From IMG/VR virus record IMGVR_UViG_3300042924_001894, positions 1 through 26,842 of that record: a stretch of DNA of 26,842 nt; one strand, written 5' to 3'. The notes under the pieces were generated by a model. That model was not told the origin of the DNA and searched no databases. It worked only from the letters and a program-made list of their open reading frames with translations. Position 1 is the stretch's first letter, and each line of letters opens with the position of its first letter. Source of the stretch: a virus. A program made the position numbers and the translations under genes. Shown piece by piece: positions 753 to 26,434 of the stretch.

Positions 753-2993
753 ATGGACTTCGACGCTTCAAAGGTCATCAGCACCGCGCCTTGGTATGAC
801 AAGGCCATCTCGGCCATCGCTCCGGCCTGGGGCTTGAAGCGCTTGGAGTCGCGCGTGCAGGCTGCGCTCTTCAACTACAACGCGGCGACGACCAATCGGC
901 TTTACGCGCCGAAGCAGTACGGTCTGCCGAGCGAGTCATCGACGACTGTGCGCGACCGCATTGTGATGATGTGGGAAAGCCGCGACCTCGTGGAGAACTT
1001 TCCGGAGGCGCGCGAGATCAGCCGCAAGTTTGGCAACTACCTGACGCCCCATGAGTACAGCCCGACGACAGGTGACCGCGACTACAACGCCATCGTTGCG
1101 GATTACTTCCACGAGTGGTGCAAGACGTGCGACGTGACCGGCCGGCATACTTTCAAGAAACTTATCCAGCTGGCGGCAGAGCAGCGCCCGGTTGACGGCG
1201 ACTGTGGCTTCGTCATTCGACGCGTCGATGGCGAACTGAAGATTCAGCTGGTGCCTGGAACGCGCATCGGCAATCCGAATATGCTCGGCTCAGAGCCGAA
1301 CAACTATTTCCAAGGAGTGTTCACGAATGAGTTCGGTCGGCCCGTTGCCTATCGCATCTTCCGCGTGACGCGCGAGGGAGTCTATTATGATCCAGAAGAC
1401 ATCGAAGCTCAGTTTTTCTGTCATTACTTTGATCCGTTCCGCGTGGACCAATACCGTGGAATCACTGACTTCCATGCTGCGATCCGCACGGCTCGGATGC
1501 TATACGAGATTCTCGAAGCTGAAAAGGTTGGCGTCCGCTTTGCTAGTCAGCAAGCCGCCCTCGTATTTTCCGACCGAGGAACTGCCAACCCACGAAACCT
1601 GTTTACGCCTAATCCGGCGCAAACGCTCGCGAACGGGCAAACGCAGAAAAACGAGGAGTCGCAAATAGGGCAGATTCGTTACTTCGGAACGGCCGACAAG
1701 ATCGAGGTGATGCCGTCGCGGCCTAGTGCTGCGTTCGAAGGATTCGTGCAGCACCTGATGCACGAGATCGCAATTGGCGTCGGCATTCCCGAGGGCGTTC
1801 TGTTCGGTACGCAGAACTACAAGGGGCCGAGCGTGCGTGCAGACTTTGCCGCGGCCGACCGCGTGTTTACGCGCCATCAGGGGATCTTGCAGGACAAGGT
1901 GCTCGATCCGATCAAGAACCAAGTCATCATCGACGCGATTGCGCGTGACCTAATTCCGGCTCCTCCGCGCCGCGATGGCGAGACGGTGGTGCAGGCGATG
2001 AAGCGTGCGACGCGTGGTGAGTGGCGATTCCCGGCTAAGCTCACGATTGACATCGGGCGCGAGTCCGCGGCTAACCTGAACGAGAACCGGCAGGGCGCGA
2101 AGTCGTTGCAGGAGATCGCAGCCGAGGAGGGCACCGATGCTTTCGGGCGCTTGGAGCAGATCGCGATTGAGGCATCGTTTGTGTCCGAACTGGCGCAGCG
2201 CTACAACGTGCCCGAAACCTCAATTCGCATGGTTACCCAGCAGCTGCCGGCGAATCCGGCGATGGCTGCCGCTCTTGGTGATAACGTCACGCAGACGGCA
2301 ATTGATGCCGTCAATGCTACGCAGAAGCAGCCGGCACAAGATGCGCCGCCTCCGAATGATGCCGAGCTATCCGACAACCGCATCGTTATCGACTTTGCCG
2401 AGGATGGTTACGTTCCGAACGATTCAATGGTCGCCAACGCGAAACGCGCGCTGGAAGTCCGCGAGTCTAAGCCGGCCAGCCAGCGTGGCATGACCTCGGT
2501 GGGCATCGCTCGCGCGCGAGACATCATTAACAAGCGTGCGCTCTCCGAGGACACGGTGCGCCGCATGAAGGCGTACTTTGACCGCCACGAAGTCGACAAG
2601 AAGGGCGCGACCTGGGACCAGCAGGGGAAGGGGTGGCAGGCTTGGAACGGCTGGGGCGGTGACGCCGGCCAGACGTGGGCCAACGCTATCGTCGAGCGAC
2701 TGAACAAGCGGCAAGCATCTAATGCGCAGAATAAGATTGAGTTTTCTTCGGAAGTAGAAGCCGACTTTGCCGCGCGAAAGATGCCATCAAACGATTGGCT
2801 CGGTTCAATCGCAGCCTATCGTCGCGAACTAGAACAAAGGAAAAAGGAATTTGTTCTGCCTTCTCCTGCTGGCACAGAATCAGGTGAAGACTTTTTGAAA
2901 CGGTGCATGGGTGATGCGATGATGGTTGGAGAGTTTCCCGATGAGTCCCAGCGGTATGCCGTTTGTCAGCGTCAACTTAATCCGAACGCCTAA
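753..2993 (+). CDS. Portal protein (lambda B-like) with extra C-terminal modules
   Basis: The portal forms the dodecameric ring at one capsid vertex through which DNA enters and to which the tail attaches. At 746 residues it is longer than lambda gpB (533). Residues 1-480 look like the lambda-type portal family (Phage_portal_2): an N-terminal AWGLKRLESR segment, a WxxWCKTCDVTGR region near residue 125, and the PVDGDCGFVIRR strand near residue 148. From about residue 559 a separate module begins (SVGIARARDI, then HEVDKKG, then WGGDAGQTWA ending near 650). A second module ends the protein (about 712-740: EDFLKRCMGD, EFPDESQRYAVC). I recall both short modules at the C-termini of other phage portals, prohead proteases and head proteins; their role is unknown to me. 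There is no SD before the ATG. The next gene starts three bases after the stop. Confidence 0.88.
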   Translation: MDFDASKVISTAPWYDKAISAIAPAWGLKRLESRVQAALFNYNAATTNRLYAPKQYGLPSESSTTVRDRIVMMWESRDLVENFPEAREISRKFGNYLTPHEYSPTTGDRDYNAIVADYFHEWCKTCDVTGRHTFKKLIQLAAEQRPVDGDCGFVIRRVDGELKIQLVPGTRIGNPNMLGSEPNNYFQGVFTNEFGRPVAYRIFRVTREGVYYDPEDIEAQFFCHYFDPFRVDQYRGITDFHAAIRTARMLYEILEAEKVGVRFASQQAALVFSDRGTANPRNLFTPNPAQTLANGQTQKNEESQIGQIRYFGTADKIEVMPSRPSAAFEGFVQHLMHEIAIGVGIPEGVLFGTQNYKGPSVRADFAAADRVFTRHQGILQDKVLDPIKNQVIIDAIARDLIPAPPRRDGETVVQAMKRATRGEWRFPAKLTIDIGRESAANLNENRQGAKSLQEIAAEEGTDAFGRLEQIAIEASFVSELAQRYNVPETSIRMVTQQLPANPAMAAALGDNVTQTAIDAVNATQKQPAQDAPPPNDAELSDNRIVIDFAEDGYVPNDSMVANAKRALEVRESKPASQRGMTSVGIARARDIINKRALSEDTVRRMKAYFDRHEVDKKGATWDQQGKGWQAWNGWGGDAGQTWANAIVERLNKRQASNAQNKIEFSSEVEADFAARKMPSNDWLGSIAAYRRELEQRKKEFVLPSPAGTESGEDFLKRCMGDAMMVGEFPDESQRYAVCQRQLNPNA

Positions 2994-2995
2994 AC

Positions 2996-5900
2996 ATGGA
3001 CACGCAAAAGCAGATCGACCATCTCATCGAGCTGGCAATCGAACAGCGCGGCGAGATTGCGCGCATTTTAAAGGAACTTCCGGAGATCCGGAAGCAGTTG
3101 CGTGACGAAGTTGTAATTGCGCTTGAAGACGTAGAACCGCAGCTGCGCGAGGAGTTGGCGCAAATTTCAAATCAGGTTGTCGCCAACGAGGTCAATGCGT
3201 TGGAGTCTAAAATCTCAGCGCGCGTATCGGATCTGTTGGCGCGTCTTGAGTTGTCGGCTGGCGCCAAGTATTCTGCGCTGATGGCAGAGCGCGAGAAGAA
3301 TGCGCAGCTGCTGGAGGTTGCGGAGCAGCGAATCCTTTTGGCTACCGCTGAACTGCCGGAGACGGTCACGCGGATTCTCGATGAGCAGATCAAAGCGCGC
3401 GAGGAGTTTGCTGCGCCGCGGACGCTCACGCCGCTCGGCAAGTGGAAGGCCGGCGAATATGAGACGCTCGATGTCGTTTCGATTAACGGTGATTCCTACA
3501 TTGCGAACCGTGCGACGCGGGAGAAGCCGAGCCGGTCAGCAAAGGACTGGACGCTCCTGGCTGCACGCGGTGCTGGCGGCGGTGGTTCGAATATTAACTC
3601 GCTGACGGATCTGACGGGCACGCCGGCGGCTGGTCAGTTGCTCATCGGTAACGGCGGAGATTTCCAGCTGAACACGTTGACGGCTGGATCGAACGTCACG
3701 ATTACGAACACGCCTGGCGGCATCGAGATTGCTGCGTCTGGCGGCGGAGGCGGCGCCGGTACGGTGACCAGCGTTGCGGCGACGGGCGATGGCGCAGTCT
3801 CGGTCAGCGGCAGTCCAATCACGACCAGCGGCACCTTTGCGATCTCGCTCGCAAGCACGGCGGTTACGGCTGGCAGCTATGGCGCGGCGGATAAGGTCGG
3901 CACGTTTACGGTCGACAGCCAAGGTCGCCTTACTGCTGCGGTAGATGCGACGATCAGCATTTCGACGAGTCAGGTCACGGGACTCGGCAGCGCTGCCTTG
4001 CAGTCCACGACTTTCTTTGCGCCTGCGACCACAGGAAGCGACATCCTGAGCGGAAACGGCTCGGGCGGCTTTGCCTCTGTCACCGTTGGAACTGGTCTGA
4101 CGTACACGGGCGGCACGTTGTCGGCTACAGGTGGCGGCGGATCAGGAACCGTGACAAGCGTTGCTGTAACCAGCGACGGCGATGTGACGTCTTCAGGCGG
4201 GCCGATCACGGCGAGCGGTACGTTTACGCTTGGACTGTCCAGCACGTCAGTCACGGCAGGCAGCTACGGTGCGGCTGGTTCTGTCGGGACGTTCACCGTA
4301 GACGCAAAGGGTCGTCTGACTGCGGCGGCTGATACGGCAATTGCGATCACGGCTGGTCAAGTGTCGGGACTTGGCAGCGCTGCGTTTGAGTCGACCACTT
4401 ACTTTGCTCCTGCTACGACCGGAACGCTCATTCTCGCCGGCAATGGCAGCGGCGGCTTTTCGACTGTCACGGTCGGATCTGGCCTGACCTACAACGCAGG
4501 CACGCTCGAAAGCACGGCAGGCGGTGGCAGCGTGACAAGCGTTGCTCTGACCGCAGGCACGGGCATCTCGATCAGCGGTGGACCGATTACGACCAGCGGC
4601 ACGATTGAGGTGACCAACACGGCACCGGATCAGGTGGTTGCTCTGACTCAAGGCGGCACGACGACGATCACCGGAACCTATCCGAATTTCACAATCTCCT
4701 CGGCTGACCAGTTCACGGGTACGGTGACCAGCGTCACTGCGCAGGGAAGCGCTGACATCTCGGTCACTGGTGGACCGATCACGACCAGCGGCACGCTGTA
4801 CTTCTCACTCAGCGACACGAGCGTAACTGCTGGAAGCTATGGCACGGCTGGCAGCGTCGCATCCTTCACGGTAGACGCGAAGGGGCGTTTAACCGCTGCT
4901 GCAAACGTCCCGATCTCAATCACGGCTGGTCAAGTAACGGGCGGATTCGTTACCTCAATTTTTGGCGAACAAGGAGTCGTCACGTCGCTGGATTACGTCG
5001 ATTTTGATACCGCTGCCACGGTCACGCCAACTCCTGGGCGCATCTACTGGAACGACTCGGACGGCGCTGGCACGATGTCCATCGCGCTGAAGGGCGGCAA
5101 CGTTCAGATCAACGTCGGGCAAACTGATTATTACCGAGTAAAAGCGACGACGGCAATCACGGCTGGGAATGTCATCGCTTTCGACGGAGTGGTTGGAGTA
5201 AGCGGTCAGATCGAAGGACGACCCGCGACGGGACTTCAGCCGAGTCAAGGCAACTACATCCTCGGTGTTGCTGCGGAAACTGGCACCACTAATGACTGGA
5301 TTTCAGTCATCGCGTTTGGTTTTGTTCGCGGGATCAATACGACGGGAGGCGGCGAAAGCTGGGTCGCTGGAGACGTGCTGTATTTCAACCCAGCGGTTGC
5401 CGGCGGGCTGACGAAGACGATCCCGACAGCGCCTAATCCTCGCGTTGAGGTTGCAGCAGTTGTCGTGGCAGACGCCGTAAACGGCGAACTGCTTGTTCGT
5501 GTGAATAGCGGCTCCTCGCTGGGTGAGACGGATAGCAACGTTCAAATCACAAGCCTAACGGGCAACGACTTTCTTGTTTACGACGCTGGCGACTCGCGCT
5601 GGGAAAACTACGCGCCATCGGCAGCGCGAACGGCGCTTGGACTAGGCTCGGCAGCGCTGGAGGCGACGAGCTACTTCGCACCGGCTACGAGTGGCACGGC
5701 GATTCTAGCTGGCAACGGCTCAGGCGGTTTCTCGCCGGTCACGGTCGGTACTGGTTTGTCCTACGTCGGCGGCACCTTGTCTGCGCTGAATGCAGGCGGC
5801 ACAGTGACCAGCGTGACCGCGCAGGGCAGCGCTGACATCTCAGTCACTGGCGGTCCAATCACGACGAGTGGCACGCTGTACTTTTCGTTGAGCGACACCA

Positions 5901-6073
5901 GTGTCACCGCTGGGAACTACGGCACGGCTGACTCTGTTCCTTCGTTTACTGTCGACGCAAAAGGAAGACTTGTTTCTGTTGGAAACGTGCCGATTTCAAT
6001 CACGGCTGGTCAGGTCAGCGACCTACCCTCTGGCGGCACCTCGGACTTGTTTCTTTGGACATCTTGCTCTTAA
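2996..6073 (+). CDS. Large repeat-containing fibre protein in the head module
   Basis: A 1025-residue virion fibre candidate. Residues 1-140 are charged and heptad-like, probably a trimeric coiled coil. Residues about 148-195 form a carbohydrate-binding-like module (GKWKAGEYETLDVVSINGD, then a Trp near the end) of a type seen in phage fibres and chitinases. A Gly-rich hinge follows. From residue 255 on there are repeats of a beta-rich unit with GTVTSV, GGPITTSGT, VTAGSYG, FTVDAKGRLTAA and ITAGQV, alternating with FAPATTG / GNGSGGF units. Residues about 650-880 are a different module (YWNDSDGAGTMSIAL, later AAVVVADAVNGELLVRV) that I recall from fibres of environmental phages. The C-terminus has no intramolecular chaperone or known receptor-binding domain that I can name. 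Its place between portal and protease is unusual for a tail fibre and allows a head-fibre role. No SD precedes the ATG. Confidence 0.7.
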   Translation: MDTQKQIDHLIELAIEQRGEIARILKELPEIRKQLRDEVVIALEDVEPQLREELAQISNQVVANEVNALESKISARVSDLLARLELSAGAKYSALMAEREKNAQLLEVAEQRILLATAELPETVTRILDEQIKAREEFAAPRTLTPLGKWKAGEYETLDVVSINGDSYIANRATREKPSRSAKDWTLLAARGAGGGGSNINSLTDLTGTPAAGQLLIGNGGDFQLNTLTAGSNVTITNTPGGIEIAASGGGGGAGTVTSVAATGDGAVSVSGSPITTSGTFAISLASTAVTAGSYGAADKVGTFTVDSQGRLTAAVDATISISTSQVTGLGSAALQSTTFFAPATTGSDILSGNGSGGFASVTVGTGLTYTGGTLSATGGGGSGTVTSVAVTSDGDVTSSGGPITASGTFTLGLSSTSVTAGSYGAAGSVGTFTVDAKGRLTAAADTAIAITAGQVSGLGSAAFESTTYFAPATTGTLILAGNGSGGFSTVTVGSGLTYNAGTLESTAGGGSVTSVALTAGTGISISGGPITTSGTIEVTNTAPDQVVALTQGGTTTITGTYPNFTISSADQFTGTVTSVTAQGSADISVTGGPITTSGTLYFSLSDTSVTAGSYGTAGSVASFTVDAKGRLTAAANVPISITAGQVTGGFVTSIFGEQGVVTSLDYVDFDTAATVTPTPGRIYWNDSDGAGTMSIALKGGNVQINVGQTDYYRVKATTAITAGNVIAFDGVVGVSGQIEGRPATGLQPSQGNYILGVAAETGTTNDWISVIAFGFVRGINTTGGGESWVAGDVLYFNPAVAGGLTKTIPTAPNPRVEVAAVVVADAVNGELLVRVNSGSSLGETDSNVQITSLTGNDFLVYDAGDSRWENYAPSAARTALGLGSAALEATSYFAPATSGTAILAGNGSGGFSPVTVGTGLSYVGGTLSALNAGGTVTSVTAQGSADISVTGGPITTSGTLYFSLSDTSVTAGNYGTADSVPSFTVDAKGRLVSVGNVPISITAGQVSDLPSGGTSDLFLWTSCS
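3758..6022 (+). repeat. Degenerate repeat units within the fibre gene
   Basis: Copies of the GTVTSV...ITAGQV unit start at 3758, 4145, 4531 (shortened and diverged), 4718 and 5798. A companion FAPATTG...GNGSGGF unit follows copies 1 and 2 (to about 4530) and precedes the last copy (about 5641-5797). The copies starting at 4718 and 5798 are nearly identical in protein (both read VTAQGSADISVTGGPITTSG) but carry many third-base differences. The pattern suggests old duplications held by selection on protein, or exchange between fibre genes, rather than recent slippage. Confidence 0.85.
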
Positions 6074-6094
6074 ACTTCTCCCCCATCATAAATC

Positions 6095-6490
6095 ATGGCC
6101 TCTACACCTAACTTCGCGGCAACGGCGCTCGCGCCGGATGTCATTCAAATCTCAACGGCCAACACGAATCGCGATGGCACGGGCACAGTCGGAACCCTTG
6201 TCACCGGAACAACGGCTGGCACCGTGATTGAAAACATCACTATTAAAGCAACGGACACAACTACGGCGGGTTGCATTCGCTTCTTTATTTCAACCGACTC
6301 CGGAACCAGCAAGCGGCTAATTGCTGAAATTGTAGTGAATGCCATTACACCTGGAGCTAGTGCTGCAACGTTTGTTTCCGAAGTTCCACAGCTTAGCGGT
6401 TTAGTGCTTGTTGGAACTTCTTCACTACTCTACGCCAGCACACACAACGCTGAGACGTTCAACGTAATTGCAGAAAAATCGGGTCTTTAA
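6095..6490 (+). CDS. Small virion-associated protein of unknown function
   Basis: A 131-residue Thr/Ala-rich, beta-predicted protein without membrane segment or signal peptide. The opening (ISTANTNRDGTGTVGTLVTG) and the middle (ENITIKATDTTTAGCIRFFI) match my memory of small proteins found beside fibre or head genes in many phages and annotated only as hypothetical. It may be a fibre-associated or decoration protein. It lies between the large fibre and the glycine-rich protein, with 21 bases before and two bases after it. The ATG follows an AT-rich segment with no SD. Base composition here is visibly more AT-rich than in the portal gene, which fits a separately acquired fibre block. Function is not established. 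Confidence 0.65.
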   Translation: MASTPNFAATALAPDVIQISTANTNRDGTGTVGTLVTGTTAGTVIENITIKATDTTTAGCIRFFISTDSGTSKRLIAEIVVNAITPGASAATFVSEVPQLSGLVLVGTSSLLYASTHNAETFNVIAEKSGL

Positions 6491-6492
6491 TC

Positions 6493-7515
6493 ATGGCTAT
6501 CAATCGCGGTATTTTAGAACGTGTTGGAAATGAAAGTGCAGCTCAAATTGCTGCGCAAGTTTTCCCAATCAAATTTGCCGTTCGCGCTACCGGAAACATT
6601 ACAGTGCCGAATAACGCCTATCGAGTGCGTGCAATAGCAGTTGGCGCAGGCGGAGGGGGAGGGGGTTCCAATTATAGAACCAGCGGCACACGTCGCAAGG
6701 GCGGCGGCGGCGGCGGCGGTGGTGGTTACGCAGAGGGCTGGTATAGTGTCACGCCTGGTTCTGTCATTCCAATCACAATTGGCAGTGAAGGAACTGCTGG
6801 AGCCGCTAGCACGGACACCACAACGCCAAACGCAACGGCGGGAGGCGCTGGTGGCACCACTTCGGTTGGATCTTTCGTTTCAGCTACTGGAGGCTCCGGC
6901 GGAGGCGTAAATAACGCAGATGACACAACGGCCGCAACTGGTGGGGCTGGCGGCGTTGGATCTGGTGGAATTTTCAACTTTACCGGAGGCACTGGAGGGA
7001 CGGGTTTAGCAAGTACATCAGCAGATGCAAATGGAGGCGGTGGCGCATCATCTGCATCTCCTCAAGGTAATGGTTTTGATGGTGGAACACCGGTTGGCAC
7101 TAATGGTGGCGGCGGTGGCGGTATTGGCGGAGCGGGTGCATCTGCTAATGGTGGCGGATCATGGGGACCAGCAGGACAGACTAACGGAGGAATGGGGTCT
7201 GCTGGAGAACAAACTACTTCTAATTCGCCCGGTCTTATTGGAAGTGGATTTACTGAGTTGCTGTATACTCTCCCGCTGCACGGTGGTGGAGCGCGAGGCG
7301 GAGCAAATGGTCAAAGTGGCGGTGGGGGGGGAACTTCGGGAAGAGGTGGCGATTTCGGAGGCGGCGGCGGCGGAAGCGCCGACTCGGCAGCAGGAGCACC
7401 CGGAGACACTAGCCGCTGTTGTGGAGGCGGTGGTGGTGGGGCTGGTAATGCAAGCAGAACTGGTGCCGGTGGCGCTGGCGGTCCCGGCATTGCGATTCTT
7501 GAGTTCTACCAATGA
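6493..7515 (+). CDS. Glycine-rich fibre-like virion protein
   Basis: A 340-residue protein of which residues about 50-335 are dominated by Gly with Ala, Ser and Thr, including runs of five to nine Gly. The N-terminus (residues 1-50) is ordinary and may anchor it. The segment GGYAEGWYSVTPG, followed by IPITIGSEG, and the ending GGPGIAILEFYQ are the recurring marks of the glycine-rich domain family found in phage fibre tips, where packed polyglycine-II helices form a variable adhesin. This matches the glycine-rich tips of some phage adhesins. The next gene begins with an ATGA overlap, so the two are translationally coupled; the downstream tail-assembly-chaperone-like protein supports a fibre role. 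The DNA is rich in GGN triplet runs and includes a run of eight G at 7324-7331. Confidence 0.75.
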   Translation: MAINRGILERVGNESAAQIAAQVFPIKFAVRATGNITVPNNAYRVRAIAVGAGGGGGGSNYRTSGTRRKGGGGGGGGGYAEGWYSVTPGSVIPITIGSEGTAGAASTDTTTPNATAGGAGGTTSVGSFVSATGGSGGGVNNADDTTAATGGAGGVGSGGIFNFTGGTGGTGLASTSADANGGGGASSASPQGNGFDGGTPVGTNGGGGGGIGGAGASANGGGSWGPAGQTNGGMGSAGEQTTSNSPGLIGSGFTELLYTLPLHGGGARGGANGQSGGGGGTSGRGGDFGGGGGGSADSAAGAPGDTSRCCGGGGGGAGNASRTGAGGAGGPGIAILEFYQ

Positions 7516-7931
7516 GCACTTACGCTCGCATCTTAAACGGCGTAGTCTTGGACGTTGTGGGTTTTGATCCGCGCGGCCGATTCCACGCCGACATTGCAAA
7601 TCAGTATGAGCCGGTTCCAGAGGGAACGCGATCCAACGCCGTCTTGATAAATGGAATTTGGGTCAATCCGCGTTTGCCTGAACCGCCGACAAAGGAACAG
7701 ATTCAGGCACAGCAGGCGGCAGAACAAGAGGAGATCAAGAGACAGACTGCTCATTCGATCCGTAGCGAACGGAATGCAAAGCTGACTGAGACAGACTGGA
7801 CTCAGGTCGATGACACGCCGCTAGACAACGTGGCAAAGAGCGCTTGGGCAAACTACCGACAAGCACTGCGCGATGTACCGGATCAAGCCGGATTCCCCTT
7901 CGATGTTAATTGGCCCAGCGCTCCCGTTTAA
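7512..7931 (+). CDS. Tail-assembly-chaperone-like protein (Phage_tail_APC type)
   Basis: A 139-residue protein. The C-terminal third has the Phage_tail_APC signature: an R-x-x-R-N-A-K-L start, TDWTQVDDTPLDN, a conserved W-x-x-YRQALRD and P-x-x-x-x-FPFDVNWP. This domain is found fused to or just after fibre genes and is thought to assist assembly of, or attach to, fibres. The first 70 residues form a small beta-rich region (ARILNGVVLDVVGFDPRGRF) also common in such proteins. A Gln/Glu-rich helix (about 58-78) links the two. Its ATG at 7512 overlaps the stop of the glycine-rich protein, so it is very likely that protein's partner. Confidence 0.75.
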   Translation: MSTYARILNGVVLDVVGFDPRGRFHADIANQYEPVPEGTRSNAVLINGIWVNPRLPEPPTKEQIQAQQAAEQEEIKRQTAHSIRSERNAKLTETDWTQVDDTPLDNVAKSAWANYRQALRDVPDQAGFPFDVNWPSAPV

Positions 7932-7948
7932 CGTCTGAGCCTTTTTTG

Positions 7949-8380
7949 ATGAGTTGGTTCACGGAACTGCTTTTTAACGCTGGCAGCGGCGGTCTGTTCG
8001 GCATGGTCGGCAGCCTCGCGACGACCTGGATGCGACTGCGCGAGAAGAAGCTGGATAATCAGTTCCAGCTGGACCTGATGGACAAGCAGTTTGCCAGCGC
8101 CGAGGCAGTCGCTGCGTGGCAGGCATTCAGCGCATCGCAGACCGCCAGCGCCGCGGATATGACCGAAAAGGTCGCTCCCTGGGCGGCTAACGTGCGCGCG
8201 GTCACCCGTCCGGCTCTTACCGCCTTTCTGGTCGTTGGTGCGTTCTTCGCTGTTCTGCTCATCAACGACGAGGCCGTGAAGGCCAATGCGCTACAGTCTT
8301 TTCAGATGCTCGCCGGCACCTCGGTCGCGTGGTGGTTCGGTTCGCGCATGACGACTCAACTTCACCAGCCAAAGAAATGA
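7949..8380 (+). CDS. Putative holin with three membrane segments
   Basis: A 143-residue membrane protein. Hydrophobic segments lie at about residues 7-27, 88-106 and 117-132, separated by an amphipathic charged stretch (residues 29-82, RLREKKLDNQFQLDLMDKQ). The APWAANVRAVTRPALTAFL segment and the closing SVAWWFGSRM segment match what I recall of the three-TM holin family first described in gene transfer agents (GTA_holin_3TM). Holins open the inner membrane for lysis. The reading frame is open upstream to 7910, but the ATG at 7949 gives the natural N-terminus. The stop overlaps the next ATG (ATGA), pairing it with another small membrane protein. Its place between fibre and protease genes, far from the lysozyme, is odd. 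An alternative is another phage membrane protein. Confidence 0.6.
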   Translation: MSWFTELLFNAGSGGLFGMVGSLATTWMRLREKKLDNQFQLDLMDKQFASAEAVAAWQAFSASQTASAADMTEKVAPWAANVRAVTRPALTAFLVVGAFFAVLLINDEAVKANALQSFQMLAGTSVAWWFGSRMTTQLHQPKK

Positions 8381-8574
8381 ACGATCACGCCGGAGCTAAA
8401 CTGTTCTTCGCCAATGCCGGCGCATGGATCGGAACTATCATCAGCCTGCAAAACATACAGGTGGTCATCGCCATTTTGTCTGGTGTCGCCTCCATCGGCG
8501 TCTCTGTTCTGTCGATGATCTGGCTACACAAGAAGGTCAACGGCCTGGATAAGAAGGACAACGACGGTCTGTGA
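8377..8574 (+). CDS. Small membrane protein, possible second holin or antiholin
   Basis: A 65-residue protein with a strongly hydrophobic stretch at about residues 14-50 (one long or two short membrane segments, broken near Gln25-Asn26) and a charged C-terminal tail (HKKVNGLDKKDNDG). The ATG at 8377 overlaps the stop of the three-TM protein, so the two are translated together. Size and charge pattern fit a class III-type holin partner or an antiholin, but sequence alone does not settle this. Confidence 0.55.
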   Translation: MNDHAGAKLFFANAGAWIGTIISLQNIQVVIAILSGVASIGVSVLSMIWLHKKVNGLDKKDNDGL

Positions 8575-8596
8575 TTTTACGCTTGCGGTAATTGTG

Positions 8597-9505
8597 ATGA
8601 CCGAAGCGTTCCCCTGCTACTTTGCCCGTGGCTTTGTCGGGCAGATCGACGAATCGACCGGAGTCATTCACGACGTTGCCGTCATCACCGAAGGCCGAGC
8701 ACTAGGCCACGGTGTAAATATCGACGCCACGACGATTGAGCAGGTCAAGGCGCAGGCCGAAACCTACTCCGGAGGCCTCAAGGTCAAGATGGACCACGGC
8801 GGCGGTGCTGCCGACATCGTCGGCTATCTGACCGACTTCCGCATCGCCGGCAACAAGCTGATCGCGAACTTCCACGTTCTGCAAAACACGCCGCACCGCG
8901 CGTACATCTTTGAGATTGCCGAGAAGATTCCGGACACGTTCGGGATGTCCATCGCCTTCAGCGGTCCGACCGAACTTGCAAACGACAAGAAAACGGTCCT
9001 GCAACGCTGCTCGGAAATCTACTCTTGCGATCTGGTCAGCGAACCCGCGGCAAATGCCGACGGGCTGTTTTCGATGAAACCCGAAGAACTTTCCCCTATG
9101 AACGACGAAGACAAGAAAGCCATCGCCGGCATGATTGAGTCGGCCATGATGGGCCTGGGTGAGCGTCTCTCCAAGCTGGAGTCGATGCTGCCGAAGCCCG
9201 AGGACAAGGAGGTCGCTATGGCCTCCCGTAACGACGAGATCAAGCTGGCCGCCGAGGCTGCTGGTCTCGCCGCCGTCAAGGAGTTCGCCAAGTCCTTTGG
9301 CGCTCCGGTAACCAAGGCCATCGCCTCCGAGGCTCCCGCTGCTCCTGCTCCTGCCGCTGCGCAGAAGTTCGAAGAGCTGGTTGCTGCCAAGGCGACGGAA
9401 CTCAAGAGCAAGAGCGCAGCCATCGCGTTCTGCGTGCAGAATCATAAGAACGAGTACGCTGCCTACCGCACCCGCGTGCAGGGTGGCGAAATCGTGAAAC
9501 TCTAA
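8597..9505 (+). CDS. Prohead protease fused to a scaffold-like C-terminal region
   Basis: This enzyme cleaves scaffold and capsid proteins during head maturation. With the ATG at 8597 it has 302 residues; the GTG immediately before it (8594) is an equally open alternative. Residues 1-165 form the protease: KVKMDHGG places the likely catalytic His at 67, GMSIAFSG places the likely Ser at 118, and CSEIYSCDLVSEPAAN (about 138-153), with Glu140 a candidate third residue, is a conserved closing strand of this fold. Residues 166-302 are helical and rich in Ala, Lys and Glu with a Pro/Ala linker (about 245-258), typical of a scaffold tail, as in the lambda C/Nu3 arrangement. An internal in-frame start with a strong SD lies at 9218. 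The decoration and capsid genes follow directly. Confidence 0.8.
   Translation: MTEAFPCYFARGFVGQIDESTGVIHDVAVITEGRALGHGVNIDATTIEQVKAQAETYSGGLKVKMDHGGGAADIVGYLTDFRIAGNKLIANFHVLQNTPHRAYIFEIAEKIPDTFGMSIAFSGPTELANDKKTVLQRCSEIYSCDLVSEPAANADGLFSMKPEELSPMNDEDKKAIAGMIESAMMGLGERLSKLESMLPKPEDKEVAMASRNDEIKLAAEAAGLAAVKEFAKSFGAPVTKAIASEAPAAPAPAAAQKFEELVAAKATELKSKSAAIAFCVQNHKNEYAAYRTRVQGGEIVKL
9206..9213 (+). promoter_or_regulatory. Strong internal Shine-Dalgarno before the nested scaffold start
   Basis: AAGGAGGT is fully complementary to the usual 3' end of 16S rRNA and is ideally spaced from the in-frame ATG at 9218. It lies inside the protease reading frame. Confidence 0.6.
9218..9505 (+). CDS. Probable nested scaffold protein (in-frame internal start in the protease gene)
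   Basis: An ATG at 9218, in the same frame as the protease gene (Met208 of the protease), is preceded by AAGGAGGT at 9206-9213, five bases between its GGAGG core and the start codon. This is among the best SD sequences in the window, while the outer start of the gene has almost none. The product would be a 95-residue Ala/Lys/Glu-rich helical protein covering the scaffold half, the arrangement of lambda Nu3 inside C. The length is short for a scaffold. The SD could be coincidence, because GAC AAG GAG GTC also encodes Asp-Lys-Glu-Val. Confidence 0.5.
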   Translation: MASRNDEIKLAAEAAGLAAVKEFAKSFGAPVTKAIASEAPAAPAPAAAQKFEELVAAKATELKSKSAAIAFCVQNHKNEYAAYRTRVQGGEIVKL

Positions 9506-9515
9506 TTAACTCACC

Positions 9516-9869
9516 ATGAGCACCCAATACTTCGGCACGGGATCTTTCCTTGCCAATGCTACGATCACCGCCTTCCGCGCGGTGGTTATCTCCACCAACG
9601 GTTCTGTCGGTCTCGCTGCTTCTACCGGCAGCGTGGACGGCATCGCGCAGATCGATGCTGCTTCCGGCGACTACGTCACCGTGAAGTTCCTGAACAACGG
9701 CGGCACCCAGAAGGGTACGCTGGTCACTGGTCCCGTAACGATTAATGACACGCTATATCTGGCTGCGTCTGGGCAAATCAGCCCCACCGGGACCGTAACC
9801 GTCGGCAAGTCGCTCACGACTGCCGGCACCGATGGCTCGATCATCGAGTTCATCGCCAAGAACATCTAA
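9516..9869 (+). CDS. Head decoration (capsid cement) protein
   Basis: A 117-residue beta-rich protein rich in Thr, Ser and Gly, between the protease/scaffold and major capsid genes, where lambda has gpD. The FRAVVISTNGSVGLAAS segment and the following GIAQIDAASGDYVTV segment fit the DUF2190-type capsid cement proteins, which bind the outer surface of the expanded shell and stabilise it. No membrane segment or signal is present. The spacing is ten bases from the protease stop and eleven bases to the capsid start. No SD is visible; the ATG follows a short AC-rich stretch. The exact family is uncertain, but the role is well supported by position. Confidence 0.75.
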   Translation: MSTQYFGTGSFLANATITAFRAVVISTNGSVGLAASTGSVDGIAQIDAASGDYVTVKFLNNGGTQKGTLVTGPVTINDTLYLAASGQISPTGTVTVGKSLTTAGTDGSIIEFIAKNI

Positions 9870-9880
9870 TAGCACCTACC

Positions 9881-10846
9881 ATGTATACGAACGCTGCTGC
9901 AATTTTCCGTGGCGATCTCGCCGGTGTTGTCGAACAGGCCAAGGACTGGGAGTCCAACCTGATCGGTACCCGCGTGATGCCGATTCTCAATGTTCCCGTT
10001 CGCGCCGGCCAGTATCCTTCCTTCAAGTTGAAGGAGGGCCAGCTGCTCAAGAGCGACGTGAAGAACCGTTCGCCGTATGCGACCTACGCTCGCGGCACGC
10101 GCGCCTTCACGCAGGAGACGTACACCGCGCTGGAGTACGGCTACGAAGAGGCCGTAGACGATACGCTGGCCTTGGACGTGTCGCGCTACTTCGACGCCGA
10201 AACCATCGCGACCAAGCTGTGCCTCCGCAAGCTCCTGCTCGCGCATGAACTTCGCGTTTCTAGCACGATCTTCAATGCGTCGACGTTCACCTCGACGAAC
10301 TCTGGCACCGCGTACACGACCGCGAATCTCGCGACGTTCGACGTGGGTCTCGATGTCGAGGCCGCGATTGACCGCCTGCTGGCCCTGGGCGAAAGCCGCG
10401 ACAACCTCCGCGTTGTCATGAGCAACCCGGTCTACACGCGCATCAAGGCGTCCACGAAGTTCCAGAACCGCCTCCGCGGTACGGGCCTCTCGACGGACAC
10501 CATCCTCAACGCTTCGCAGCAGGCTGCTGCCGAGGTCTTCGGCGTTTCCGAGGTTCTGATTGGTCGCGCGAGCTACGATGCCGCCAAGGAAGGCCTGGCG
10601 TTCTCGTCCGCGCAGGCGTGGTCGAATGACTACATCTGGGTGGGTTCCGTGACCGATGCCTCCTCCGGCTATTTTGGAGGTGGCGCTGCGTTCACGTTGA
10701 ACTGGCAGGAGTACGGCAGCCCGACCGGCGTGTTCTCGTACCGTGACGAGGCCATCAAGAGCAACATTGTGCGCGCGTCGCACTACGTTGCCGAGAAGGT
10801 CGTCAACACCAACGCTGCGCAATTGATCGGCACTCAGTATTCCTGA
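9881..10846 (+). CDS. Major capsid protein
   Basis: A 321-residue protein in the major-capsid position, right after the decoration protein. Features consistent with an HK97-fold shell protein are an N-terminal helical arm (AIFRGDLAGVVEQAKDWE), an extended loop region (residues about 40-75, GQYPSFKLKEGQLLKSDVKN), a long spine-like helix (about 90-130, ending in LRKLLLAHELRV), and an axial domain with ALGESRDNLRVVMSNPVYTRI and the characteristic LIGRASYDAAKEG strand region. The expected high expression contrasts with the absence of an SD before the ATG. A strong intrinsic terminator begins 21 bases after the stop. No obvious N-terminal delta domain is present, which fits the separate scaffold. 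The family was not identified by name. Confidence 0.85.
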   Translation: MYTNAAAIFRGDLAGVVEQAKDWESNLIGTRVMPILNVPVRAGQYPSFKLKEGQLLKSDVKNRSPYATYARGTRAFTQETYTALEYGYEEAVDDTLALDVSRYFDAETIATKLCLRKLLLAHELRVSSTIFNASTFTSTNSGTAYTTANLATFDVGLDVEAAIDRLLALGESRDNLRVVMSNPVYTRIKASTKFQNRLRGTGLSTDTILNASQQAAAEVFGVSEVLIGRASYDAAKEGLAFSSAQAWSNDYIWVGSVTDASSGYFGGGAAFTLNWQEYGSPTGVFSYRDEAIKSNIVRASHYVAEKVVNTNAAQLIGTQYS

Positions 10847-10867: not shown

Positions 10868-10900
10868 AGCCGTCATCCTTCATTGGGTGGCGGCTTTTTT
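10868..10900 (+). terminator. Rho-independent terminator after the major capsid gene
   Basis: An 11-bp stem (10868-10878 with 10885-10895; two G-U pairs), a 6-base loop and a T-run through 10900. The start codon proposed for the HNH gene begins at the next base. Confidence 0.85.
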
Positions 10901-11584
10901 ATGCACCCTTGGTACGGTCTAAAATTTAACCAGCGCAAACTTCTCACTCATGAGATGCGCTTGTGGTTAAGCAAAAATGAGGGCAAACGCTTAGAGCACG
11001 GATTTGTTCGCGAAGACGGAAAAGTTTTTTGTGGTTATGGAGTCGGCTACAAGAACGGAGAGCATTGGGCTAGTCGTGAAGTCTTTGAAAAGCGGCTTCA
11101 GGCCTGCCGGTTAAATCAGCGCAAGCTCAGAAAAGATCCAATTTACCGGGCTAAATTCAACGAATACGCTAGGGCTAGGTACTTGAAACGCTCTGATATT
11201 AGAGAAAAAAACAAAAAGCGTTCTCAGATATGGGATAAACAATTTCCCGAAAAGCGAAGTCTTCGTGCTTCTAAACGCAGAGCACTTATCAAGAAAGTTT
11301 GCCATTGCGATCATGAGCCAAACATTGAACTGGAGATGCGGAGGCTTGCAGATCAGTTAACCAAGAAAACGGGAATAAGGCATCACATCGATCACATAAT
11401 CCCAATTGCTCATGGAGGGATGCACCATCATCAAAACCTTCAGATTCTTCCTGAGCCAGTTAACCTTCAAAAGAGTTCAAATCCATTTTGGACTTCTGAG
11501 ATATATTTAGACTTCCGTTCAGTTCCGAGAACGCTGTGGCCTGAGCAACTGGCCCAATTTTTGTCAGCTATCGCGAAGTGCTAA
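10901..11584 (+). CDS. HNH endonuclease (probably free-standing homing type)
   Basis: A 227-residue protein whose C-terminal half carries an HNH nuclease motif: a Cys/His cluster VCHCDHEP (about 133-140), then GIRHHIDHIIPIAHGG (158-173) containing the core His pair, NLQ at 179-181 and N-x-x-K at 188-191. The N-terminal half (1-125) is very basic and likely binds DNA. The DNA is clearly more AT-rich than the flanking capsid and transferase genes, and the gene sits between terminators, both signs of a mobile insertion. The ATG at 10901 directly abuts a terminator T-run and has no SD; Met at 10955 is an alternative start. HNH proteins beside the terminase often act in packaging, but this one is distant from it, so a homing role is more likely. 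Confidence 0.8.
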   Translation: MHPWYGLKFNQRKLLTHEMRLWLSKNEGKRLEHGFVREDGKVFCGYGVGYKNGEHWASREVFEKRLQACRLNQRKLRKDPIYRAKFNEYARARYLKRSDIREKNKKRSQIWDKQFPEKRSLRASKRRALIKKVCHCDHEPNIELEMRRLADQLTKKTGIRHHIDHIIPIAHGGMHHHQNLQILPEPVNLQKSSNPFWTSEIYLDFRSVPRTLWPEQLAQFLSAIAKC

Positions 11585-24172: not shown

Positions 24173-24517
24173 ATGGCACTGAAACTTTCCATCACCCTCC
24201 CCAACGGCGCGACTGGCGACTACCTCCGACTGACCAGCGTCGAATGGGACCGCAACCTCGGCAGCGCACTAGGTTACCTTGCACTGTATCTCAACGCTGC
24301 GCAGGCTGCCTCTGCTCCGGCCTATCCGCTTGGACTGGTCGCACAGCTGAACGTGCGTGACGATGTCTTCGCGCAGTACCTGAGCAACTCAGCGCTCAAC
24401 GGTGCCAATGACCGATTGCTTGCTCAGATGTACGCCATCGCCAAGAACGAGCCGCGATGCGTCAAGGTTCTGAACGGCATCACGCTGCCTGACCTAGCGC
24501 AGGCTGAGGATGTCTAG
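24173..24517 (+). CDS. Small protein after the tail tip gene, unknown function
   Basis: A 114-residue protein starting three bases after the tail tip stop. The opening ALKLSITLPNGATGDYLRLT, then a hydrophobic segment LGSALGYLALYLNAAQAA, resembles small beta-rich proteins often coded after fibre genes in phages; I know no function for them. No signal peptide or membrane helix is convincing. Its end overlaps the phosphoesterase start by eight bases, so the two are translated together. It could be a virion component of the tip. Confidence 0.6.
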   Translation: MALKLSITLPNGATGDYLRLTSVEWDRNLGSALGYLALYLNAAQAASAPAYPLGLVAQLNVRDDVFAQYLSNSALNGANDRLLAQMYAIAKNEPRCVKVLNGITLPDLAQAEDV

Positions 24518-25253
24518 AGGACGTCGCTTCGTGGTGGCAGCAGACAACCACGGCGACCAGTTCGACGAGGTGACGCAGCGTGCGCTGCTGGCCTTCATCA
24601 AGGACTTCCGGCCAGAGATCCGCATTCACGCTGGCGACTGCTGGGACTTCCGCAATCTTCGCAAGGGGGCGAGCGACGAGGAGAAGATGCACAGCTTGGA
24701 GGATGACTGGACGGCCGGCGTCGAGTGGATCCGCGCCTACTTCGACGGTGGTGCAGAGAACCACTTCCTCCGCGGAAATCACGACGAGCGACTCTATCGC
24801 TTGGCCGATAGTGCGAGCGGCCTTGCAGCAGACTACGCACGCGAGGGCGTGAAGCGCATCGCTCGCGTCATTCACGCAGCCAAGGGCAGGATGCTGCCTT
24901 ACGATTCACGACTGGGCGTGCTGCGGCTAGGTCACCTCCGCGTCGTCCATGGCTACTTCGCCGGCCTCGGTGCTGCTCGCCGTCATGCTATAGCGTATGG
25001 CAACTGCCTGTTCGGCCACGTCCACGCGACCGACTCAGCACCAGTTGAAAGCATTGAAGGACCGGCCGAGGCGCGCGGCATTGGCTGCTGCTGCAAGATC
25101 GACATGAGCTACAACGCGCACATGGTTTCTAAGCTGCGCCACGACAACGCCTGGTGCTACGGTGTACTGTTCGACGACGGCACCTATCAACTGTTCCAAG
25201 CAAAAAAGATCGGAGGGTCATTCTATGCCGCGCAAGGAATCCACAAGTACTGA
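24510..25253 (+). CDS. Calcineurin-like metallophosphoesterase
   Basis: A 247-residue enzyme with the full metallophosphatase motif set: ADNHGD (Asp12, His14), GDCWDF (Asp43), GNHDE (Asn90, His91), VVHGYF (His147) and GHVH (His170, His172). These bind a two-metal centre that hydrolyses phosphate esters such as nucleotides, cyclic nucleotides or DNA ends. No signal peptide is visible, so it acts in the cytoplasm. The usual GDH-type first motif is DNH here, a common variant. An LFGHVHATD segment and a Cys-rich GIGCCCKID tail are notable. The start is set by the ATG at 24510 overlapping the previous gene. Substrate is unknown. Confidence 0.85.
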   Translation: MSRGRRFVVAADNHGDQFDEVTQRALLAFIKDFRPEIRIHAGDCWDFRNLRKGASDEEKMHSLEDDWTAGVEWIRAYFDGGAENHFLRGNHDERLYRLADSASGLAADYAREGVKRIARVIHAAKGRMLPYDSRLGVLRLGHLRVVHGYFAGLGAARRHAIAYGNCLFGHVHATDSAPVESIEGPAEARGIGCCCKIDMSYNAHMVSKLRHDNAWCYGVLFDDGTYQLFQAKKIGGSFYAAQGIHKY

Positions 25254-26050: not shown

Positions 26051-26434
26051 ATGCGCTCACTACTCATCACCGCGCTGCTGACCAGCGCAGTTCACGCAGC
26101 ACCGCCCGAGTCGTTCTGGCGCGGGCTGCACGTCGTCGAGAGTGGCGGTCGCCGTACTGGCCTGATCCTCGGCGATCAAAACCGAAGCCGCGGACCGCTG
26201 CAGATTATGCGTGGCTATCATGCCGACTCGCGCGTGGCTGGTGCTTACGAACAGGTCGATGATCTTGCTTACAGCCGGAAGGTCGTCACCGCCTACCTGA
26301 AGCGCTACGCACCGAAAGCGTGGGCGGCTGGCGATGTCGACACTTTGGCGCGCGTGCATAATGGTGGCCCTAGAGGCCACTTGAAGCCGCAGACCAAAGC
26401 CTACGCCGAGCGCGTGCGGAGGGCCATGCAATGA
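26051..26434 (+). CDS. Secreted lysozyme-like endolysin
   Basis: A 127-residue peptidoglycan hydrolase candidate. Residues 1-16 form a Sec signal (MRSLLITALL hydrophobic core, VHA-A cleavage-like site). After it comes WRGLHVVESGGRRTGLILGD with Glu30 as the likely catalytic acid, then RSRGPLQIMRGYH, and RVHNGGPRGHLKPQTKAYAE toward the end. This is the pattern of small lysozyme/transglycosylase-type phage endolysins. A signal-carrying endolysin reaches the periplasm by the host Sec system, so the holin would mainly trigger rather than release it. The holin-like genes lie about 17.7 kb upstream. It overlaps the next gene by four bases. Confidence 0.78.
   Translation: MRSLLITALLTSAVHAAPPESFWRGLHVVESGGRRTGLILGDQNRSRGPLQIMRGYHADSRVAGAYEQVDDLAYSRKVVTAYLKRYAPKAWAAGDVDTLARVHNGGPRGHLKPQTKAYAERVRRAMQ

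Follow-up and report, generated by a model that had tools for sequence, protein, structure and literature searches.

Modules that join a tail fibre to its assembly chaperone are known from stf-tfa of phage lambda, gp37-gp38 of the T-even phages and S-U of phage Mu. Those of the stf-tfa type sit after the tail genes, whereas in the virus record analysed here (26,842 bases, hereafter the window) such a module lies inside the head genes, directly after the portal gene. The locus raises the question of what this block encodes between portal and protease, and of where on the virion its fibre would sit. An earlier note had counted six genes in the interval, and the open reading frame lists bear this out, with six genes on the + strand at 2996-8574 (Table 1). 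On balance, we regard the block as a receptor-binding and lysis cassette that its lineage keeps between portal and protease and not, as is usual, behind the tail genes.

Table 1. Features of the portal-protease region of the window.
Feature	Position	Strand	Evidence or remarks
Portal, lambda family, with C-terminal extension	753-2993	+	PF05136 E 8e-42; phrog_21 E 5e-45
Fibre gene	2996-6073	+	1025 aa
Putative anchor of the fibre, its conserved N-terminal residues 1-196: a long helix followed by a CBM5/12-like domain	2996-3583	+	22-sequence alignment
Repeat shaft of fibre	3584-6073	+	recurring GTVTSV...PITTSG...VTAGSYG...FTVD motifs
sv, small jelly-roll protein of the fibre cassette	6095-6490	+	AF2 pLDDT 92
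gly, glycine-rich fibre tip, putative adhesin	6493-7515	+	phrog_863 (tail fiber assembly) E 2e-17
Tail-fibre assembly chaperone; N-terminus variable, C-terminal domain conserved	7512-7931	+	PF16778 (Phage_tail_APC) E 9e-26; phrog_8716 E 1e-24
Holin-like membrane protein, 143 residues	7949-8380	+	phrog_6637 (unknown function), 13/13 members
Small one-helix membrane protein, putative lysis accessory	8377-8574	+	one hydrophobic stretch; ATGA overlap with 7949-8380
Putative prohead protease	8594-9505	+	phrog_976 E 0.03

The portal-protease slot across relatives

Relatives were gathered by a search of IMG/VR with the major capsid protein (MCP), which returned 80, and by an added search with the fibre N-terminus; some of the resulting loci overlap on the same contigs. 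The arrangement of the window recurs in 57/57 loci covering both flanks, with portal and protease in order and 3.5-8.1 kb apart, and this recurrence makes it more than chance. In all 57 the cassette lies between portal and protease and not after the tail-tip gene, which is the usual, if not strictly defining, place of a tail-fibre/chaperone module. Of 68 distinct sequences, 66 have the fibre N-terminus immediately next to the portal, the two exceptions (L066 and L075) having one extra large gene in between, and in a deeper branch (L033) a different fibre comes first and the CBM-bearing fibre later, both within the slot. Neither the window nor its relatives show the lambda-type order in which the protease directly follows the portal; in seven named phages with distantly related portals, the portal adjoins a protease, a Clp protease-like gene, or an annotated major capsid or protease-MCP fusion gene. 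The earlier note had named as contrary to its view relatives sharing the order together with a demonstrated tail-fibre product, and it is the shared order that was found. Each part is of a known kind; what is unusual is that a large lineage keeps them at a fixed place within its head operon, and no description of a fixed fibre cassette in a head operon was found in the open-access literature with the few term combinations searched. The suggestion that the block is expressed early in the late operon gained no support, as promoter- and terminator-like matches lay near the shuffled expectation.

The cassettes of relatives also include a phrog_4492 tail fibre and a lectin domain. In one of them a sulfotransferase (PF13469) lies beside an RCC1-repeat protein (L082:15079-16881), and another record (G011, loci L094/L096) carries two copies of a fibre-end/chaperone-like module at 757-2247 and 39618-41108 (oriented coordinates), 88.6% identical and both within the portal-protease slot, as well as two copies of the tail-tube gene.

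As for the flanks, residues 548-661 of the portal, in its C-terminal extension, match phrog_2859 (unknown); this extension varies widely, the portals of the relatives read being 721-995 aa long. The putative protease has no Pfam match and is weakly identified, mainly from its conserved place upstream of the cement and MCP genes; the cement protein matches PF09956 above the cut-off in one relative. After the MCP gene, nearly every relative reaching that far carries a family-2 glycosyltransferase (PF00535; 11730-13445 in the window), beside which stand further sugar-type genes; together these may modify virion or host glycans. An HNH-endonuclease-like gene, also after the MCP gene (10883-11584, third-position GC 0.44), has no counterpart in L006, L009 and other near relatives and is likely a mobile homing-type element. 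A metallophosphatase-like gene lies after the tail-tip gene J in the window (24510-25253) and in the portal-protease slot in L033 (L033:7353-8372).

A fibre with a constant N-terminus

The 1025-residue fibre has no full-length family match. The AlphaFold2 model of its N-terminus (mean pLDDT 84) predicts a single 137-residue helix, residues 3-139, followed by a small beta domain of CBM5/12 fold, whose nearest solved phage match is the tail fibre of cyanophage A-1(L) at a Z of 6.8, in the range below 8 that may reflect merely a common arrangement. The next phage matches of this domain are the Pam1 tailspike and fibre or baseplate proteins of Pa193, Milano and 7-7-1, those of Pa193 and 7-7-1 being tail fibres. 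The CBM5/12 assignment gains credibility from the sequence matches: the tail fiber family phrog_5073 matches all 22 aligned N-termini (best 6e-9) and CBM_5_12 is weakly matched by 10/22. The 'portal protein' family phrog_1289 also matches the CBM part of 22/22 members, and was given no weight.

A tblastn search of isolates with the N-terminus retrieved the CBM part only, mostly weakly and often in tail-fibre or minor tail genes, and did not trace the N-terminus to another genomic setting among them. Compared as a profile with the sequences of solved structures, the N-terminus gave only weak coiled-coil and chitin-binding matches. At the opposite end of the protein, the fibre C-terminus of L195 has a sequence match (E 6e-6) to a putative tail fibre of solved structure, and in some relatives a C-terminal motif leads us to suspect an S74-type self-chaperone.

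An exchangeable tip and its chaperone

The best fold matches of sv were the KHP40 cement protein (Z 9.9) and the HFTV1 turret (Z 9.0), both near-tied with unrelated jelly rolls; fibre knobs scored about 7.5. This small protein has 253 viral relatives (L206-L282 among the loci), whose sampled neighbours often belong to tail-fibre families; the family is essentially unnamed in PHROGs, and the window's member has no Pfam match. The glycine-rich protein, in turn, matches the tail fibre of Pam3 (E 8e-4). In L009, whose structural genes are mostly at least 90% like those of the window, a glycine-rich domain forms the C-terminus of the fibre itself, and this fusion is a moderate argument suggesting that gly would be a fibre tip made as a separate chain. 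Direct BLASTP with composition correction found no match between gly and the L009 C-terminus; with the correction off the pair scored 135 bits, while the best of 50 shuffles reached 105. The chaperone matches several tail-fibre PHROGs, and a tail-fibre assembly chaperone was detected in 31 loci. The window's module shares with those of the stf-tfa type a conserved fibre N-terminus, a repeat shaft, an exchangeable tip, a chaperone gene adjacent to and behind the fibre gene, and recombination within the module.

Such recombination can be followed among close relatives. L119 is 98.7% identical to the window over 1356-5965 and 95.6% over 7767-10527, with unrelated DNA between; similarity to L123 and L124 is lost near 3980 and regained near 7791, and for L006 the corresponding points are near 5934 and near 7808. 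These four comparisons place the breakpoints in the repeat shaft and in the chaperone (7767-7808), whose C-terminal domain is kept. Among the loci scanned, no more than three proved to carry sv and gly, at 100%. The earlier note had described the block as inserted and of separate origin, with AT-rich portions at 6095-7500. Both ideas hold only in part, as the tip genes alone (about 5966-7766) look recently exchanged, whereas the slot itself is present in every relative found. The total GC of the 6095-7500 portion is 0.558 against 0.574 +/- 0.023, only the 52nd lowest of 255, a weak sign of separate origin; what stands out is the third-position GC of sv (0.47) and gly (0.37), compared with 0.65-0.80 in the portal, fibre, protease, cement and MCP genes.

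Putative lysis genes and a proposed working of the cassette

The two membrane-protein genes close the block at its 3′ end. Starts in relatives agree with ATG 7949, rather than TTG 7910, for the holin-like gene, and with ATG 8377, not GTG 8329, for the second. Pfam searched with the holin-like protein gave nothing even at an E of 5, and the protein did not match the 3TM holin family (PF11351, phrog_3427). It shares with its counterparts in relatives a conserved RP..T...WWFG.R pattern, and in L061 the same place is occupied by a clear GTA_holin_3TM / phrog_3427 holin. By homology, 51 of the 57 loci carry a protein of the phrog_6637 or GTA_holin_3TM type within the portal-protease slot, and the remaining six have membrane proteins there. 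We infer that the window's protein is a holin; homologues of the second membrane protein occur in 34 loci.

The constant position, the conserved fibre N-terminus, the exchangeable tip and chaperone and the holin-like slot at the 3′ end can be read from the sequences themselves, and a receptor-binding and holin cassette is the best reading of the block. The suggestion of a transplanted tail-fibre/lysis cassette is in this sense well supported, by the tail-fibre chaperone, the glycine-rich tip, the holin homologue in the slot and the canonical gene order of Rhizobium phage RHph_Y5A. The tail series of this phage resembles the window's in layout and is followed by a gene with a weak CBM5/12 match and then a lysozyme; unlike the window, RHph_Y5A keeps its fibre and lysis genes in the canonical position after the tail genes, and its portal is of the DUF935 type. 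The interval between its portal and protease contains a gene of pectin-lyase fold as well as an annotated 'putative head fiber'.

As a working model, the 1025-residue protein would trimerise, its N-terminal helix docking it on the virion and its repeats forming the shaft, while sv and the glycine-rich protein would form or cap the tip with the aid of the PF16778 chaperone. Hosts would be recognised by tips that recombination exchanges in the stretch from the conserved shaft to the C-terminal domain of the chaperone, and both membrane proteins may act in lysis alongside the lysozyme-like gene present in the window at 26051-26434.

Where the fibre may sit on the virion

A location on the tail, as a side fibre, is favoured over the neck or the capsid, since the chaperone type, the CBM5/12 domain and the tip match those of tail fibres and since no other long fibre gene, nor anything fibre-like, was found after the tail-tip gene J. 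The canonical counterpart in RHph_Y5A also speaks for the tail. In eleven records no open reading frame after J exceeded 462 aa, and the longest ones that were tested proved RecT-like, exonucleases or recombination proteins, or unassigned. G008 and G013 lack NlpC and carry a divergent allele (about 50%) of the tail-tip genes DUF2460, DUF2163 and J, yet their fibre N-terminus is still about 74% like that of G009. The anchor here stays with the head genes, as it would if its docking site were the head or neck, though linkage by itself would have the same effect. Neck and capsid taken together are, in our estimation, a minority possibility.

The more plausible of these two, still unlikely, is a neck or collar fibre, whose N-terminal helix would dock at the portal vertex or connector while the CBM and shaft project sideways, similarly to the lactococcal neck passage structure (NPS). 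Its gene lies immediately 3′ of the portal, and the constant stretch of ~190 residues followed by variable parts parallels the NPS of 936 phages, which has a constant ~180 residues, a coiled coil, a CBM and a variable remainder, and for which attachment to the portal was proposed (PMC6669499). The likeness in constant N-terminus, coiled coil, carbohydrate-binding modules and variable remainder applies to the NPS of 936/P335 phages (PMC6669499). However, the NPS has a BppU-like beta-sandwich N-terminus, whereas the AlphaFold2 model of the fibre is helical from residue 3 and shows no such sandwich, and all phage proteins known to match the CBM domain belong to tail fibres, tailspikes or baseplates. 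The identities of the fibre N-terminus do correlate best with those of the portal (r 0.95) and less with those of J (0.67), but this is expected from linkage and uninformative beyond it. Nor does the place of a gene predict that of its product, as the NPS gene of TP901-1 closes the tail module, after the baseplate genes, and yet its product sits at the portal vertex (PMC4493119).

Less likely still is a capsid fibre, in which fibre trimers would stand on the capsid and serve reversible adsorption, as in 7-7-1 and phiCbK, and sv would form a trimer that caps them or resembles a cement protein. The embedding of the cassette among head genes and the likeness of sv to cement and turret proteins would fit, as would Agrobacterium phage 7-7-1, where the candidate receptor-binding protein gp4 is numbered beside the portal gp005 (PMC12796354); unlike the window's phage, 7-7-1 is a myovirus. 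Against this, the PF16778 chaperone and the tip families are tail-fibre families, as are often the neighbours of sv in other phages, and the near-ties in the sv fold search are ordinary jelly rolls. Finally, a recent chance insertion or an assembly artefact in the window's contig, to which the low third-position GC of sv and gly might point, is rejected as practically without chance, given that every relative, from many metagenomes, has the slot, and that the near-identical contigs L002, L121 and L122 carry the window's arrangement.

Lineage, host and significance

The lineage is a large group of uncultured freshwater phages, among which close relatives swap the fibre tip in the portal-protease slot. 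The only clue to the host comes from two contigs in betaproteobacterial MAGs. One of them, L198 (VGHX01000030.1), is 27,992 long, as is the viral contig 3300021091_000327, and the two are probably the same phage contig, for which reason a betaproteobacterial host is only suggestive.

Automated annotation expects fibres after the tail genes and calls genes beside the portal head genes; a large environmental lineage with its host-range cassette in the head operon offers a clean test of gene position against virion location. The tail side fibre is the favoured reading here. It is doubtful that the fibre which chiefly recognises hosts, and which is rapidly exchanged, has its anchor at the portal or neck (or the capsid) and not at the tail tip, with its gene and the tail-fibre-type chaperone fixed directly after the portal for that reason; if true, the variable organ of adsorption would have been shifted in this lineage from the tail to the head. 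The cassette also exposes sv as a widespread unnamed jelly-roll family of fibre cassettes, and it marks where host-range variation is readable in these uncultured, possibly betaproteobacterial, phages.
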